Virus record (IMG/VR): IMGVR_UViG_3300024353_000005 | Coordinates: 1-64,000 of that record | Source of the DNA: a virus | Reading direction: 5' to 3' (one strand) | Length of the DNA stretch: 64,000 nucleotides | The notes under the pieces: model-generated | What the model saw: the letters and a program-made list of their open reading frames with translations, nothing else | What the model was told of the DNA's origin: nothing | Database searches by the model: none | Program-made: the position numbers and the translations under genes | Shown here: positions 1,156 to 11,803 of the stretch, piece after piece | Position numbering within the stretch: position 1 is the stretch's first letter | Layout: the number at the start of each line of letters is the position of its first letter

Positions 1156-1476
1156 TTACCAGATACTGCATCCTTTCATCCAAGGTTCGATACCAGAATT
1201 TACCCAAATACGATACCAGTTACCCATATAAAAAGAATACCCACTTTTGAAACTACCCAAAAGATTATGTAGTGTAATAACTTTTTTACAATCAGCTCGT
1301 TTAACCCAACCATTATCTCCATTATTCAACCTATGTAATCTCCAGCAACCATAGCGAACTCCATTCGCTACAATGTATTTTTTGCCTTGGTAGATAGCCT
1401 TATCACCAAGATTAATTTTAAATATCCATTTAATACTTAAACATAATACCATAAAATAAACCAATACTTTATTCAT
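1156..1476 (-). CDS. hypothetical protein with N-terminal hydrophobic segment, 106 aa
   Basis: Residues 3-20 are hydrophobic, a signal or anchor. The rest is rich in Gly and Trp (GVRYGCWRLHRL, NNGDNGWV, GNWYRIWV), a beta-rich pattern that looks like a recurrent phage family of unknown role. Overlaps the start of the SbcC-like gene upstream by 8 nt. Confidence 0.65.
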   Translation of the reverse strand: MNKVLVYFMVLCLSIKWIFKINLGDKAIYQGKKYIVANGVRYGCWRLHRLNNGDNGWVKRADCKKVITLHNLLGSFKSGYSFYMGNWYRIWVNSGIEPWMKGCSIW

Positions 1477-3139
1477 CTTTTAACTCCTCCCTTTTTATAG
1501 AGCTTCCTGCTCTATCCTTAAGCACTTCAATAATATTCTCGCAACTATCCTGCAACTCATAATCGTGGGTAATCAGGAATATCTTCTTGAACTGAAATCT
1601 CCGCCTCACAAAGTTAATCGCATCCATAATCTTCGCCTTATTTCTGGCATCCAGACTTCCGAAAGGTTCATCCAATATCAGCGTTTCAATTTGAGTTCCG
1701 CTTCGCCTTGATAAAATAACCGACAGGGCAATCCTCAAAGCAAAGTCAATCAGCGTTTTCTCGCCACCAGAATAGTTATAATATGACTTGTCCCCGCTTG
1801 AATCCGATATGATTATGTCAAGGGTTTCGGATTCCTTTCCGCTTTTGAGCTGTTTCTGTGTCTGCATATTGAGCTGCAAATCCGCAATCCTGCCGATTAT
1901 GTCGTTGGCTATGTTCTGGATTTCGGGGATGATATTATCTATAATATATGCCTGTATCCCGTTCTTGCCGAAAGCGTTCATCAGAAGTGAATAATCTTTC
2001 ATTTTATTGAAAATAAGTTTTTTATTTTGAGTGAGGATAGCTCTCTTCTTTTTCATTATGGCAAGTTCCTTGGCAGTTTCTTCAATGGATACTAATTTAA
2101 CCTTTAGACTGCCTAATTCTTCTCTCAAGTCATTATCTTGTTTTCGTAGTCGTTCTACTTTATCAGATATAGATTTGGGTAATTCTTTAACTTTTTCTTT
2201 AATTTGAGTATCAATAATCTTTGCCTGTTTTTGCAGTTTCTTTATCTCTATAAGAGACGCTTTTTTGATACTTATCTTATGAACATTGAAAATTTTCTGG
2301 AGGCAGAATGGGCAACTATTTAATTGAACGAATTTTTCTATCTTTTTCTTCAACTGGTCAATCTTTATCTTATAGTGATATTCTTTATTTTTCAGTTCAT
2401 TCAATTGCTTCTTGATTTCTTCTCTCCTGCTCTCTATTTTTAAATATCTTTTATATTCCTTCTCTATCTTGGAAAGATGTCTCTGGACTGCTCCAACACG
2501 ACTTTCGGTATCTTTGCGGTTTTCGGTATGTGGCGAAACAGTTGTATTTTCTAATAGAGATAGTTCAAGTTCGGTTTTCTCTTTTCGGAGTGCTACTTCA
2601 GCAAAAAGATTTTTAGCCCTCTTATAATAGCCATCATATTTGTCCAACTGCAATATTCGCATTAAAACGCTCTTGGCTTCTGTCGGCGATAATTCGGAAA
2701 AGGAACTCATCTTGCCCTGCTCAAATCCGACCGAGTGCCTGAAAGTGTCATAGTCCATTCCAATTATTTTTTCCAATACCGCCTGCGTTTCCTTTATACT
2801 GTTGCCACATTTGCCATTTATGGTGAGTTTTGTGGCTTTGCCCTTCGTTCTTTTTCGCAAAACTGTGCTTCGCCTATTATTTTTGATGAAAGTAATCTCA
2901 ACCGACATCTTGTCTGAAAAATCAGTGATAAGATTATCACCTGCGGTGATACATCGGTTTGAATTGCCAAATAAACAGTATTCTATTGAGTCTACTATTA
3001 AGCTTGTCTTACCACTGGCATTTGATAACCCTGTTAATTTATTTTTGCCGAGAATAAGATATAGGCCATCTTTACCAAGATTTAGCTCGGTGTTCTTATG
3101 AGAGAGGAACTTATGTAGTTTTATTTCAATTATATTCAT
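1469..3139 (-). CDS. SbcC/Rad50-like (phage gp46-like) recombination ATPase
   Basis: 556 aa. The SMC-type ATPase partner of the Mre11/SbcD nuclease, which processes DNA ends for recombination and repair. Visible motifs: Walker A ending in SGKTS (about 42-46), Q-loop FEQGKMSS, coiled coils flanking a zinc-hook CPFC near residue 276, ABC signature YSGGEKT near 457, Walker B LILDEP near 487 and H-loop FLITHD. The length matches phage T4 gp46 (about 560 aa) rather than bacterial SbcC (about 1000 aa), because the coiled coils are short. The partner gene is at 4097-5101, separated by five small genes. The start is fixed by GAGGATAAATG, where TAA ends the upstream gene. Confidence 0.95.
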   Translation of the reverse strand: MNIIEIKLHKFLSHKNTELNLGKDGLYLILGKNKLTGLSNASGKTSLIVDSIEYCLFGNSNRCITAGDNLITDFSDKMSVEITFIKNNRRSTVLRKRTKGKATKLTINGKCGNSIKETQAVLEKIIGMDYDTFRHSVGFEQGKMSSFSELSPTEAKSVLMRILQLDKYDGYYKRAKNLFAEVALRKEKTELELSLLENTTVSPHTENRKDTESRVGAVQRHLSKIEKEYKRYLKIESRREEIKKQLNELKNKEYHYKIKIDQLKKKIEKFVQLNSCPFCLQKIFNVHKISIKKASLIEIKKLQKQAKIIDTQIKEKVKELPKSISDKVERLRKQDNDLREELGSLKVKLVSIEETAKELAIMKKKRAILTQNKKLIFNKMKDYSLLMNAFGKNGIQAYIIDNIIPEIQNIANDIIGRIADLQLNMQTQKQLKSGKESETLDIIISDSSGDKSYYNYSGGEKTLIDFALRIALSVILSRRSGTQIETLILDEPFGSLDARNKAKIMDAINFVRRRFQFKKIFLITHDYELQDSCENIIEVLKDRAGSSIKREELKDE

Positions 3140-3957: not shown

Positions 3958-4097
3958 TTTATTGCCTCCGCTAAATTTAATTTTGCTACCAAACTCCAAT
4001 CTTTCATAACTTGATAAAGATAGGTAACCCTTATTTCAAATTCCATATCAATTAGTTCTCTGGTCTGATTATAGAAATGATATGTGTAACTAAGCAT
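3954..4097 (-). CDS. hypothetical protein, 47 aa
   Basis: Begins MLSYTYHFYNQTRELIDMEF. It starts at the TAATG overlap with the SbcD-like gene and ends in an ATGA overlap, so it is a coupled cistron directly behind the nuclease. No family recognised. Confidence 0.6.
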   Translation of the reverse strand: MLSYTYHFYNQTRELIDMEFEIRVTYLYQVMKDWSLVAKLNLAEAIK

Positions 4098-5101
4098 TAG
4101 ACTTTCTCCTCTATTATCTCCAATCCTCTTTTAATAACCCTTTGTTCCAATTTTTTCTCTTTGCCATATTGTAAAAATGCTTGCACTGGACTAATCCTCT
4201 CATTGATATTCCTGTTCCTCACTCTCTTGTGTTTGATATAATCGTAATGCACGGTGTAGGTATAAGCCCCGTTGAATTTTTGCTGTATCAATTGCCAATC
4301 AAACTTGTCCTTGTCCTCTTTTTTGCAGTGGAAAACAACCTTGACAATCGCCTCGCTAACCCCATTAATGTCCACATTTTTCAATTCCTCAACAGTGCGA
4401 ATGTCAAATTGTTTCATCGGGCGTGTCTTGAGGCGATAAAATTTATACTGATTGTGAAGAATGTTCTCTTTGTCCTTGGTTATGTCAATATATAGCAAGT
4501 ATTTATGCTCATTTCTTTCGGCAAAATCAATGTGGTCTATTGAGCCGATATAGGTGATTAGGGGATTTTCTTTGTACAAGATTTGAGCCTTGTGAATATG
4601 CCCTAAAAGTATGACATCAGCCCCAGAAATACCCTTATTTGTAGCGAGGATTGCCTGTATTGAAATATTCTGGGCAGAAGCGAGGCTGTACCCCAAAGCC
4701 CCTAATTTCGCCTCTCTGACCAAAATATGCCATAATTTGACCCTGATATTATCACGGGTAATAAAGATGTCCCCATTGTTAAGCACCTGCACACCCTGTA
4801 TATTCAGGTTGTTAAACTCATCGACAACCGATATGTTCTTGTCAAAATCGTGCTTGCCCTTAAGCCCTGGTATCATAACGACCTTTATCTTGTTTTCCAC
4901 GAACCGAAGAACCCAAGTTTCAAATGCGTGCCGTTCAACATTTCTGGGTCGCTTATACTGGTAAATGTCGCCTGCTATCATGAGATAATTCGCCTTCTTG
5001 AGGATTGCAAAATCCAGTATCTGCTTCATCACATCTAAAGTGTCCTTGAAGCGTCTGGAATAATCTATGTGCAAATCGGAAATAGCTACAATTCTTGACA
5101 T
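4097..5101 (-). CDS. SbcD/Mre11-like (phage gp47-like) nuclease
   Basis: 334 aa metallophosphoesterase, expected partner of the SbcC-like ATPase at 1469-3139 in DNA end processing. Motifs in order: SDLHID (8-13), AGDIYQ, then GLKGKHD where the family has GNHD, and LGHIHKAQ. The Asn of GNHD normally contacts the metal, and here it is Lys, so activity may be altered or the alignment shifted by one loop. C-terminal third is charged and probably contacts the ATPase. Followed by TAATG coupling. Confidence 0.9.
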   Translation of the reverse strand: MSRIVAISDLHIDYSRRFKDTLDVMKQILDFAILKKANYLMIAGDIYQYKRPRNVERHAFETWVLRFVENKIKVVMIPGLKGKHDFDKNISVVDEFNNLNIQGVQVLNNGDIFITRDNIRVKLWHILVREAKLGALGYSLASAQNISIQAILATNKGISGADVILLGHIHKAQILYKENPLITYIGSIDHIDFAERNEHKYLLYIDITKDKENILHNQYKFYRLKTRPMKQFDIRTVEELKNVDINGVSEAIVKVVFHCKKEDKDKFDWQLIQQKFNGAYTYTVHYDYIKHKRVRNRNINERISPVQAFLQYGKEKKLEQRVIKRGLEIIEEKV

Positions 5102-5367: not shown

Positions 5368-5535
5368 TTACCTCCTTTTCAAGTTTCTTATAAAATCTCT
5401 TATCGTCAAATAAAGTAATTCCCACCAATAATCATGTTGGCACGCATAAGCTCCCATTTTACCACATTTTGTGCAATAAGATTCCAGAGATTTAACTGTA
5501 TGACACTTTGAACATCTATAATATATTTTGGGCAT
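5368..5535 (-). CDS. zinc-ribbon protein, 55 aa
   Basis: Two Cys pairs: CSKC near residue 8 and CTKC near residue 21, plus a further Cys and His at about 32-34. SD AGGAGG upstream. Its last codons AGG AGG TAA provide the SD for the next gene. Overlaps the end of the phosphoesterase gene by 20 nt. Function unknown; one of many tiny zinc ribbons here. Confidence 0.7.
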   Translation of the reverse strand: MPKIYYRCSKCHTVKSLESYCTKCGKMGAYACQHDYWWELLYLTIRDFIRNLKRR

Positions 5536-6089
5536 TTTTTGCCCTCCTCTTAATCCACCTGCTATATTCCTTCATAATCTCCTCAAAAGAAACTGGTCGG
5601 AAGCCCCAGCAATCTACACCTACATTGATTAAATCGGTGTGTCCCAATCCCTTATATACTCTCTTGAATTTCCATGCGTTGTGGACATGCCCGCAGAAGT
5701 TTATGGAATAGTTCAAATCTGCATGTTCGGGATTATGGACTAAGTTAATCCTATATCCGCCAAACTTAATGACCATCCGCTCTATCGGCGTTTTACAGCC
5801 ATTGTTACAGCTGTGGTTTCCACGAATGTGGATAATCTTGCCATTTAACCGCTTTTCATAATCGATGGCTTTTGTCATGGTTCCCTCGCCCTTTTTGCCC
5901 CCAGCCGAGTTTTTGAAGTTGAAATCGCCGAGTTCGAAAACCAAATCATCGGGCTTAACCCGTTCGTTCCAGTTTCGGATTATGGTTTTGTCCATCTGCT
6001 CCAAGGACTTAAATGGGCGAGAGCAGTATTTTATGATATTAGCATGCCCAAAATAACTAGTGGGTGTCAGAAGCGAACCATATTTTCAT
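5516..6089 (-). pseudogene. calcineurin-like metallophosphoesterase, frameshifted after codon 10
   Basis: The ATG at 6089-6087 opens MKIWFASDTH, the classic first metal motif (D-x-H), then hits TAG. Reading resumes in another frame a few bases later as YFGHANIIKYCSRPF, exactly the continuation expected for this family, then GDF, IRGNHS and CGHVHNAW to a TAG stop. Net shift is +1 mod 3, around 6052-6060. The start is coupled (ATGA) to the LAGLIDADG gene immediately upstream. Either the gene is inactivated, uses frameshifting, or the sequence has an error. The unshifted part alone (from 6004) lacks the D-x-H motif. Confidence 0.75.
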
Positions 6090-6913
6090 AATAGTTCACC
6101 TCTAACACCCAAGCATCTCTCCTTTACTTTCTTTTTAAGATTATTTCTTTTTATTAATAAAGAAACACCAGACTTGCTCATTCCCAATAATTTTGCTATA
6201 GAGGTTTGATTTATATCCTGCTTTAAGAGATCCTTTATTTTTTCTTTTCTTTCAATGCTTCTAACTATCCTACTTTTAAATGAAATATCTATCTTATCCC
6301 ATTTTCGATTAAGGACTGGTAATCTTAATTCTTTTGTCTTTCTTCTTAAAAAGTTTAGTATAATAGAATTATTGAAGCCCAAAAGTGAATAACCTTTATT
6401 ATTTATATGAACTTTGTTAGGCATTAGATTAAGTGGCTTACAAATTTTATTACTTAATAACTGTAAATTGTTAAACCAAGAAGAATGTATTTTAATTCTT
6501 ATAGCACAATCTTTTCTATTTGTTTGATAATTTATACATCCATCGCCATCAATAAAACCAATAAGAAAGGAGATAAAGAAATTCTTATCTACATTATCTA
6601 ACCAAAACAAATTACAAGCATTGAAAGATTTTCTACTCACAAAACCAAATTTCTTAATTATTTTCGGAATATTATATTTATCTTGAATCGATAGTTCGAT
6701 AGAATTATTATTACCTTTACGAACATTTGGACAATTAATATAATCTGCAAATCTTAACAAGTGAATTTTATCTCTCATAGATAATCCTATTTTTAATCTA
6801 TAAGTCTTATAATTTATAGATCCATCTGCCATAAGAAATCCTATCCAATAATAAGCTCTATAAGTATTTTTTAATAACTTTTCTAAATTTCCCCTGACAC
6901 GACTGTCTTTCAT
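6086..6913 (-). CDS. LAGLIDADG homing endonuclease
   Basis: 275 aa, free-standing. Two LAGLIDADG helices are visible, WIGFLMADGSI (about 23-33) and FLIGFIDGDGCI (about 115-126), as in a monomeric two-repeat enzyme. The C-terminus has a resolvase-like helix-turn-helix (DINQTSIAKLLGMSKSGVS), often used for DNA recognition. It cuts a long specific site to copy itself. It sits between a transporter gene and a phosphoesterase gene, and the latter is frameshifted 30 nt from the junction, which suggests the insertion disturbed or marks that gene. Confidence 0.9.
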   Translation of the reverse strand: MKDSRVRGNLEKLLKNTYRAYYWIGFLMADGSINYKTYRLKIGLSMRDKIHLLRFADYINCPNVRKGNNNSIELSIQDKYNIPKIIKKFGFVSRKSFNACNLFWLDNVDKNFFISFLIGFIDGDGCINYQTNRKDCAIRIKIHSSWFNNLQLLSNKICKPLNLMPNKVHINNKGYSLLGFNNSIILNFLRRKTKELRLPVLNRKWDKIDISFKSRIVRSIERKEKIKDLLKQDINQTSIAKLLGMSKSGVSLLIKRNNLKKKVKERCLGVRGELL

Positions 6914-6914
6914 C

Positions 6915-7181
6915 TTATTTCTTTCTCCGATATTTCATTATCAAAAATACTATAACTCCCATCAGCATAAAGGGAAGCAAATTTGCTATCACCACAGAAT
7001 AATTCTTTAATAGTGTATTCCCTACGAGAAATAGAATATAGGCAGTCAGACATATTGTAAAGAAAACCAAGCTCAAGCCACGAGTTTCCTTTGTCTTCAG
7101 CAATTTGCAAATTTGAGGCAGACATTCAATAGCCCACAAAAATCCTGCTGTGTATATGAAAATGTCTGCTAGTGTTTTCAT
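6915..7181 (-). CDS. SemiSWEET-like PQ-loop membrane protein
   Basis: 88 aa with three hydrophobic segments (about 5-18, 37-55, 62-82) and the PQ motif in LPQICKLLKTKETRGLS, the signature arrangement of bacterial SemiSWEET transporters (about 85-100 aa, three helices, acting as dimers to move sugars). Length and topology fit well. Unusual cargo for a phage; substrate unknown. TAA is one base before the ATG of the endonuclease. Confidence 0.75.
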   Translation of the reverse strand: MKTLADIFIYTAGFLWAIECLPQICKLLKTKETRGLSLVFFTICLTAYILFLVGNTLLKNYSVVIANLLPFMLMGVIVFLIMKYRRKK

Positions 7182-10643: not shown

Positions 10644-10797
10644 AACTAAAATCCTCCCAAGTTATTGTCTCCAAAATTATTAATTTATCCTCGCTATAGG
10701 ACTTGCCACAATACATACAATATTTATAATAATCACATTTGCATAAATATTCTTTGCAATGAGGACAGCCATATATAACTAATTTATTCTTCTTCAT
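10636..10797 (-). CDS. zinc-ribbon protein, 53 aa
   Basis: CPHC near 11, CKC near 19 and CMYCG near 28 give six Cys in a ribbon-like order. The ATG lies inside the last codons of recA in another frame, with only AGAGG close upstream, so initiation is probably coupled to recA termination. Overlaps the next gene by 8 nt. Confidence 0.55.
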   Translation of the reverse strand: MKKNKLVIYGCPHCKEYLCKCDYYKYCMYCGKSYSEDKLIILETITWEDFSCE

Positions 10798-11803
10798 TTC
10801 CTCTAAACAGGGCTTTCTTTATGTCTGTCTTGAGTTTGCCTACTAATTTAGGATTAGCTTTTAGATGTTCAATTAAAGCAATCTTGCCCTTAAATTTCTT
10901 CTTTTCAAAAGTATAAATCGCCCCAGCTCTCTTAATATACTCATAAAATATCCCATACTGGATGATGCTCGCATAATTATCTATTGAACCGTCTTTAAAA
11001 TAAATGTTAAAAGTCCCCACTCGAAATGGTTCATAGGTTTTGTTCTTAACTGTTTTGAAGGCGATAACTTGCCCGATAGTCTTTTTATTCACACCAGTTC
11101 CTTCTTGAATCCACTCTTTTCTATTTAATCTAATTCGGATTGAGGCACAAAATCCAACACCCTTTCCGCAAGGCGTGGTTTCAGGATTGCCATATAGCAC
11201 TCCGATTTTCATTCTAATCTGGTTGATAAAGACCACGATACACCTATTATAAGACTCGCCCTTTCCCAAATCAACTGGTTGCAATGCTGACTGGACTTTC
11301 CTAACCATTTTATTAGCAAGCCGAGCAGCTACCCCCATTTGCTGGTCTTCTGCTGAGCTCTCAATTTCCACTAATGGAGTCATACTCGCCAAACTGTCAA
11401 TCACAATAATTCCCAGTTCCCTGCTCCTAACCAATTTGTCAACAGTGTCTATCGCCTGCTCTGCCGAGGAAGGCTGGGAGATAATCAGTTCTTTGGTGTT
11501 TACCCCCAATTTTTCGCACCATTCCAAATCAATGGCATTTTCCAAATCGATATAGGCAGCCTTCCTTCCGAGTTTTTGGACTTCGGCAACCAGTTTGAGT
11601 GCTGAAAATGTTTTGCCAGATGATAATGGGCCGAACATCTCGATTATGCTTCCTTCGGGGATGCCTCCGCCAGTCGCCATATTAAGTGCAAAAGAGCCAG
11701 TAGAAATCCTTTTCTTCTTGGTATAAGCACATTTTCCAAGTCGCATTACTGAACCTGGATATTGTTTGTTTATTTCGTTAATTATTTTTTCCAATTCTCC
11801 CAT
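10784..11803 (-). CDS. recA: RecA recombinase
   Basis: 339 aa. ATP-dependent strand-exchange protein for homologous recombination and repair. Walker A is GPLSSGKT (58-65), where bacterial RecA has GPESSGKT. Walker B IIVIDSLASM, the loop-2 segment NPETTPCGKGVGFCASIRI and the VFINQIRMKIG stretch follow in order. Length is near cellular RecA (about 350) and it is RecA-like, not UvsX-like. Neighbours include an SSB-like protein and two resolvases, a recombination cluster. Confidence 0.97.
   Translation of the reverse strand: MGELEKIINEINKQYPGSVMRLGKCAYTKKKRISTGSFALNMATGGGIPEGSIIEMFGPLSSGKTFSALKLVAEVQKLGRKAAYIDLENAIDLEWCEKLGVNTKELIISQPSSAEQAIDTVDKLVRSRELGIIVIDSLASMTPLVEIESSAEDQQMGVAARLANKMVRKVQSALQPVDLGKGESYNRCIVVFINQIRMKIGVLYGNPETTPCGKGVGFCASIRIRLNRKEWIQEGTGVNKKTIGQVIAFKTVKNKTYEPFRVGTFNIYFKDGSIDNYASIIQYGIFYEYIKRAGAIYTFEKKKFKGKIALIEHLKANPKLVGKLKTDIKKALFRGNEEE

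Follow-up and report, generated by a model that had tools for sequence, protein, structure and literature searches.

We found that a metallophosphoesterase (MPE) gene in the stretch of viral DNA analysed here (IMG/VR record IMGVR_UViG_3300024353_000005, positions 1 to 64,000; these 64,000 nucleotides are hereafter the window) is interrupted directly behind a gene for a LAGLIDADG homing endonuclease (HEG), and to judge from its sequence it is most probably read by programmed translational bypass, a stop-hop carried with the HEG. The same anatomy of 5' hairpin, stop codon and short gap recurs in MPE genes of other viral contigs, with a landing triplet that matches the take-off codon in most relatives and with conservation of the encoded protein. 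Programmed bypassing in phages has so far rested mainly on gene 60 of T4; the present set provides dozens of natural candidates whose signals are limited to a hairpin, a stop and a landing codon, and which occur in different frames and apparently under different genetic codes. If they are true bypass sites, the minimum signal for bypassing becomes testable, as do two further questions: whether refolding of a 5' hairpin is by itself enough to move a ribosome, and whether bypassing arises in evolution as a defence against homing endonucleases. Ordinary gene finders would presumably truncate such genes.

The interrupted gene in the window

All features of the locus lie on the minus strand. A gene encoding a PQ-loop membrane protein (6915..7181; Pfam PQ-loop, 3.7e-10) is followed by the HEG (6086..6913; Pfam LAGLIDADG_1, 7.6e-6, and LAGLIDADG_3, 8.3e-6; phrog_4645 endonuclease, 8.5e-22), whose TGA stop overlaps the ATG of the MPE (6089-6087). 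The first segment of the MPE (6060..6089) reads MKIWFASDTH, includes the D-x-H motif and ends with the take-off codon CAC (His, 6060..6062), immediately 3' of which stands a TAG stop (6057..6059). Alignment to two relatives, L001 and L002, identifies seven extra nucleotides, TAGTTAT (6053..6059), which we divide into a gap, TAGT (6059-6056), and a proposed landing triplet, TAT (6055-6053), non-cognate for tRNA-His and forming two wobble pairs. After these nucleotides the family sequence resumes in a different frame as FGHANIIKYC, from 6052 to a stop at 5518-5516; this second segment (5516..6052; 178 codons plus stop) carries the other catalytic motifs and matches phrog_547 (phosphoesterase, 2.3e-27). 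RNA folding yields a 5' hairpin of 20 bp (6062..6110) with a 9-nt loop that contains the MPE start codon, and its 3' arm stops inside the take-off codon, 2 nt 5' of the TAG.

The original prediction, of an MPE broken behind a LAGLIDADG gene, is borne out by the minus-strand ORFs and by the PHROG and Pfam matches, which agree. The D-x-H motif, the TAG and the return of the family sequence in another frame were all seen, the last placed at about 30 bp from the HEG stop; between the HEG stop and the MPE TAG lie 26 nt. The hairpin and the recurrence in other viral contigs had not been noticed there. The comparison it proposed with relatives that lack the endonuclease was also run: in the HEG-free L001 and L002 (both IMG/VR) the MPE is one unbroken ORF, and it is the stop of the PQ-loop gene upstream that its ATG overlaps. 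At the other end of the gene in L002, a NUMOD3-motif gene (L002:5500-6162; Pfam 2.1e-11) overlaps the MPE 3' end, and the MPE locus looks like a hot spot for HEG- or NUMOD3-type genes. The phage of the window also carries an SbcC-like gene (1469-3139), a RecA gene (10784-11803) and a second metallophosphoesterase (4097-5101), which we take to be SbcD-like.

In the mechanism that we propose, the upstream helix would be incomplete while its 3' arm sits inside the ribosome, and would refold behind the ribosome, pulling the mRNA out. The peptidyl-tRNA would then release and re-pair 5-12 nt downstream (in the window 7 nt, from CAC to UAU), and translation would restart at the next codon to give an uninterrupted MPE (...SDTHFGHANI...). 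The interruption most likely lies at the point of HEG cleavage or insertion and would destroy the DNA target, giving immunity to re-cleavage, while the hop would keep the MPE protein despite loss of that target. We infer the hop itself, the action of the hairpin as motor and the role in immunity from the anatomy of these loci.

The break could also be read as a scar of homing that left the MPE dead or truncated, with the gap as debris of insertion or repair, or as an immunity insert, and the second segment perhaps translated from an internal start. Such a scar would cost the MPE its catalytic D-x-H. The break does coincide with the HEG junction, and remnants of an old N-terminus are found in two other loci (L004 and L035, see below). 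The second segment of the window, however, has dN/dS values of 0.066 and 0.124 relative to the intact L001 and L002, which differ from each other with a dN/dS of 0.099; the segment thus appears to be under purifying selection, and a dead gene is improbable. When the second segments of 13 bypass MPEs were aligned with that of L001, 15 columns were invariant; they include GD, G-x-H, H and GH-x-H, presumably residues of the metal-binding motifs of the MPE. These values and columns speak against inactivation, one of the readings in the original prediction. L026 was omitted from the alignment because just 34 open codons follow its hop, and some copies may be decayed, as the scar reading would have it. 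The profile built from these second segments matches PDB 1xm7 (aq_1665) at 7.9e-21 from chain residue 10 onwards; the first segment would therefore form the beginning of the fold and supply the D-x-H ligands. Among bypass orthologues dN/dS is not given because dS was saturated in 14 of 15 pairs. Since neither a stop directly after the take-off codon, nor a synonymous landing codon, nor a compensating hairpin is expected of a scar, we regard this reading as unlikely.

Recurrence, hairpins and landing codons in other viral contigs

From an HEG alignment search of viral contigs we took the best 80 of 109 confirmed loci, and from an extended HEG alignment the best 79 of 121 viral loci. Many of the HEG loci so listed adjoin an MPE, and the break seen in the window is present in 13 of them (L004, L016, L019, L020, L021, L022, L026, L032, L035, L041, L073, L092 and L137), the duplicates L003, L011 and L065 having been removed. 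In these 14 loci, window included, a codon of the D-x-H motif (the one for T, L or H) is directly followed by TAG or TAA, a short gap and then the family sequence.

A DNA pattern (GAC ACN, TA, 0-9 nt, ACN CAY T(A/T)Y NNN CAY NNN AAY) that requires a Thr landing codon, but neither a stop, a hairpin nor an MPE, gave 25 matches in the viral contigs. Twenty-three are MPEs with TAA or TAG and a hairpin, eight of them on contigs already found and 15 at new loci; in the other two (L199 and L200), which are chance matches outside any MPE, TAC or TAT takes the place of the stop and the site lacks a hairpin. Two further patterns (D-T and D-L) that leave the landing codon free gave 90 matches, of which 32 score as MPE at E < 1e-5, many of them loci of the first pattern; L199 and L200 were excluded from this landing-free test. 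The element is thus present in about 38 contigs including the window (29 tabulated and nine from the landing-free patterns), or about 35 once three duplicate pairs are merged (over 500 bases around the site, L187/L191 and L212/L225 are identical at 500/500 and L249/L265 at 493/500). It might exist elsewhere unseen, because every search began at the D-x-H site. The arm of the window hairpin found no exact match in the viral contigs, and a DNA search of the phage collection with the window region found none either. In the phage collection, HEG searches returned 12, 10 and 4 records, none of them reaching 60% identity, and MPE searches matched 446, 1313 and 900 records. Six MPE regions from phage records (L203-L208; three named phages and three unverified faecal clones) were examined, and each has one ORF and no strong hairpin at the site. 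A scan of genome contigs gave 14 HEG loci, with an MPE match at two, L164 (intact, used as a control) and L165.

This recurrence bears on the possibility of an assembly or sequencing error, which the original prediction had also raised. The contigs are metagenomic, hairpins can trouble sequencing, and a second assembly of the phage of the window was looked for and not found. Against an error stand the number of contigs, the differing gaps, and three pairs from different metagenome assemblies (L022/L065, L187/L191 and L212/L225) that are identical over 500/500 bases. We consider an error extremely unlikely. Removal of the extra nucleotides from the mRNA by splicing or editing is just as hard to credit: it would leave the codon match unexplained, and we know of no mechanism for cutting 2-9 nt out of a message behind a stop codon.

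The fold of 111 nt of RNA in the window has an energy of -38.5 kcal/mol (z = -5.46), and none of 200 dinucleotide shuffles was as good. For comparison across loci, we folded the 75 nt ending with the take-off codon and scored them against mononucleotide shuffles. Mean fold energy is -23.5 kcal/mol in the 29 bypass loci and -8.1 kcal/mol in 34 intact MPEs, and z averages -5.3 (range -8.2 to -3.1) in the former and 0.0 (range -2.6 to 1.4) in the latter, without overlap; the 34 controls were picked by hand, leaving out near-duplicates (such as L071 and L047), L028, L060 and the frame-broken L006, L059 and L105. The hairpin of the window is the strongest of the 29. Pairing ends 0-4 nt 5' of the stop in 29/29 loci, and 0-3 nt 5' of it in the 14 found through HEGs. 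L182 and L196 appear weak on a short-stem measure because their hairpins exceed the 60 nt that it allowed; their total MFE is about -25. Among matches to the landing-free D-T pattern, those that are MPEs have hairpins with z of -2.4 or lower (mean -5.0), and those that are not have a mean z of -0.4 (lowest -4.0).

Covariation was assessed on eight distinct hairpins chosen for equal geometry, in which all cells pair (88% in shuffles). The covariation score of 0.40 exceeds those of 500/500 shuffles (mean 0.17) and of slid controls (0.13 or lower). Two of the five measures do not exceed shuffles, namely both-sided changes, seen in three of ten pairs (216/500 shuffles as high), and further pair types, for which this test gave no excess (361/500 shuffles as high). 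The 3' arm encodes F-T-S-D, and the three pairs changed on both sides sit at third codon positions, so coding and pairing are both kept.

A stop immediately follows the take-off codon in 15 of the 17 interrupted MPEs listed on the HEG route (the 14 bypass loci and L006; the two without are L059 and L105), and although the first DNA pattern fixed only 'TA', 23/23 of its MPE matches carry TAA or TAG. The landing triplet is synonymous with the take-off codon in 12/14 HEG-route loci (for example ACC/ACT, ACG/ACG, CTT/CTT, CTG/CTG, CAT/CAC and CAT/CAT), the mismatches being the window (CAC/UAU) and L020 (CAT/AAC), and in 27/29 tabulated loci, 15 of which had been selected for a Thr landing. With the landing codon left free, the D-T pattern yields a Thr landing in 23/28 MPE matches and in 0/18 others; the five mismatches are GCT in L212/L225, GCG in L214 and L229, and ATT in L221. 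The D-L pattern yields a synonymous landing in 4/4 MPE matches (6/6 if L233 and L237, with weaker profile scores of E = 0.0012 and 2.9e-5, are added) and in three of the other 38. The title of Herr et al. 2004, as cited in PMC3014915, states that minimal pairing can be enough for translation to resume, which may cover the landings at UAU in the window and at GCT, GCG and ATT.

The displacement is 5-12 nt and can be of any of the three frames; whichever the frame of the gap, the resumed sequence is that of the family consensus. Ordinary +1 or -1 frameshifting, or readthrough of the stop, would do without a hop. Readthrough is possible for the in-frame cases (L021, L026, L041, L073 and L092), but it fails for the out-of-frame displacements of 5, 7 and 8 nt, as in the window, and two in-frame stops lie inside the gap of L021 and of L187/L191. 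Re-pairing at overlapping codons would miss the consensus, which a displacement of 5-12 nt restores. As the frames vary, neither readthrough nor a single frameshift rule fits the set, and a hop does. The proposal of programmed frameshifting in the original prediction therefore holds in so far as recoding is supported; the event would be a hop over the stop to a codon that does not overlap the take-off codon, and not a shift of one base.

Three other MPEs on the HEG route are interrupted differently. In L006 (identical to L106) and L105, both beside HEGs, the next codon carries a single additional base; the junctions are UUU UAA C in L006 and UUU CGG in L105, the latter with a hairpin and no stop. 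L059 has an extra T and lacks such a hairpin. L006 and L105 resemble +1 sites at the neighbouring codon, which is in favour of frameshifting, and suggest +1 shifting as an alternative solution at this position. For the bypass loci themselves, we judge frameshifting or readthrough highly improbable. Some HEG-linked MPEs (L053, L070 and L071) are intact and lack such a hairpin, so that the presence of the HEG does not entail a hop.

The codon after the take-off codon is a stop under the apparent code of each phage. One TAG in the HEG of L073 is read as Gln, and the hop stop of this phage is TAA; the HEGs of L032 and L035 each contain three TGA codons read as Trp, and their hop stops are TAG and TAA, respectively. 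For this argument from the code, L073 is the only real test, and it is one case. TGA stands at conserved Trp positions of the endonuclease in L032, L035 and L061 (the last by eye), and these phages probably read TGA as Trp.

Within its family, the window is one of the weaker cases, because the UAU landing codon does not match the His take-off codon; in the stop, its position and the conservation of the protein it agrees with the other loci. A scan of the window from sequence alone gave 163 codon-stop-codon candidates, seven of which have hairpins between -12 and -16 kcal/mol, and thus a codon match with a weak hairpin is not specific; the scan gave no convincing second hop site in the window.

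Comparison with known bypass systems

T4 gene 60 with mobA (PMC3014915, PMC5009743, PMC11194080) resembles the present loci in having a stop right after the take-off codon, a 5' stem-loop and a gene interrupted beside an HEG; its take-off and landing codons are matched, as in most relatives here, and its insert is possibly protective against cleavage, as we propose for the MPE sites. The 5' stem-loop of T4 is described as a motor that pulls the mRNA (PMC5009743), and refolding behind the ribosome as promoting directional sliding (PMC11194080). T4 gene 60 skips 50 nt, whereas the MPE sites skip 5-12 nt, and it relies in addition on a stem-loop at the take-off site, on a signal in the nascent peptide and on a 3' stem-loop, whereas the MPE hairpin lies 5' of the stop. 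In folds that included the gap and 30 nt beyond, a T4-like take-off loop containing the stop was found in 1/29 loci (L035) and not in the window, and the KKYK nascent-peptide signal in 0/29 first segments, that of the window being 10 codons long.

The synthetic stop-hops of Weiss et al. 1987 (cited in PMC5009743), in which matched codons flank a stop within 9 nt, are close to sites such as CTT TAG CTT in L026; those were constructs and the MPE sites are natural, and by this analogy the MPE sites would be the natural form of synthetic stop-hops. That 2016 review (PMC5009743) states that no natural in-frame stop hopping was known, that shorter counterparts with matched codons had long been presumed, and that there was one further phage candidate, Streptomyces phage Hau3. 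It also describes blocks of inserted nucleotides in the mitochondria of Magnusiomyces capitatus which, as proposed here, are corrected at translation, some with imperfect landing codons; those elements differ in being mitochondrial and seemingly independent of mRNA context (PMC5009743). The MPE family of phrog_547 and PDB 1xm7 (aq_1665) includes the second segment of the window, and its relatives in L203-L208 are unbroken. A literature search, with most subscription papers outside its reach, returned no report of such sites in MPE genes. Work in PNAS in 2011 reportedly dealt with mobA and the bypass sequence.

Homing endonucleases beside proposed bypass sites

The HEG beside the bypass was recognised as LAGLIDADG by Pfam in the window and by alignment or tblastn in 13 other loci. 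The LAGLIDADG domain is present with both motifs, and the ADG and IDGDG columns are invariant in 12 aligned HEGs. Beside the bypass MPE of L197 lies a GIY-YIG endonuclease (Pfam 4.3e-8), and in ten contigs found through the pattern no HEG was recognised by eye in the flank read. Upstream neighbours at loci without a recognised HEG include DNMK (L179 and L193), PNKP (L188), a cytosine methylase (L182) and SmpB (L184).

Upstream of the HEG in L004 and L035, we found a diverged second MPE N-terminus (blastn E = 5.5e-6 and 2.8e-7) that ends close to the hop codon. In these two loci the HEG thus seems to have entered the MPE, bringing a replacement N-terminus with hairpin and gap. The blastn search of the 14 loci gave matches at four, those in L019 and L092 covering the start region only, and no remnant copy upstream of the HEG in the other 10, the window among them. 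The idea of a repair scar at a homing site, also part of the original prediction, is therefore retained in that the remnants end near the hop codon, and set aside as an account by a scar alone.

Four phages (L016, L041, L193 and L197) share a near-frozen stretch at the site. In the 63 nt before the gap, 0/21 third positions differ in all six pairs; in the first 63 nt after it 4-11/21 differ, and in the following 180 nt 27-35/60 differ, while ungapped identity 61-90 nt upstream is 0.43-0.60. Their neighbours are LAGLIDADG genes in L016 and L041, a GIY-YIG gene in L197 and none that was recognised in L193. The N-terminus, hairpin and gap thus behave as a conserved or transferred unit that is not tied to one HEG, and part of the similarity may come from recent transfer.

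We think it likely, with somewhat less confidence than for the bypass in the window, that these loci represent a widespread mobile class of minimal bypass elements in about 35 distinct phage MPE genes, each with a 5' hairpin as motor, a take-off codon, a stop, a gap of 2-9 nt and usually a cognate landing codon. Such elements would have become widespread and varied by shielding the DNA from more than one HEG family, with the protein kept by hopping, and would persist without a nearby endonuclease.

Several neighbouring genes are of interest in their own right. A phage gene for SmpB, the partner of tmRNA, lies directly upstream of the bypass MPE in L184 (L184:4160-4597; Pfam 4e-43). The HEG ORF of L016 (L016:2878-3813) lacks a stop of its own and runs in frame into the MPE start, where a hop could yield an endonuclease-MPE fusion. 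The HEGs of L010 and L012 directly precede nucleotidyltransferase-like genes (Pfam CTP_transf_like in L010, by eye in L012) whose N-terminal motif is intact, which would fit a second conserved N-terminus as target.
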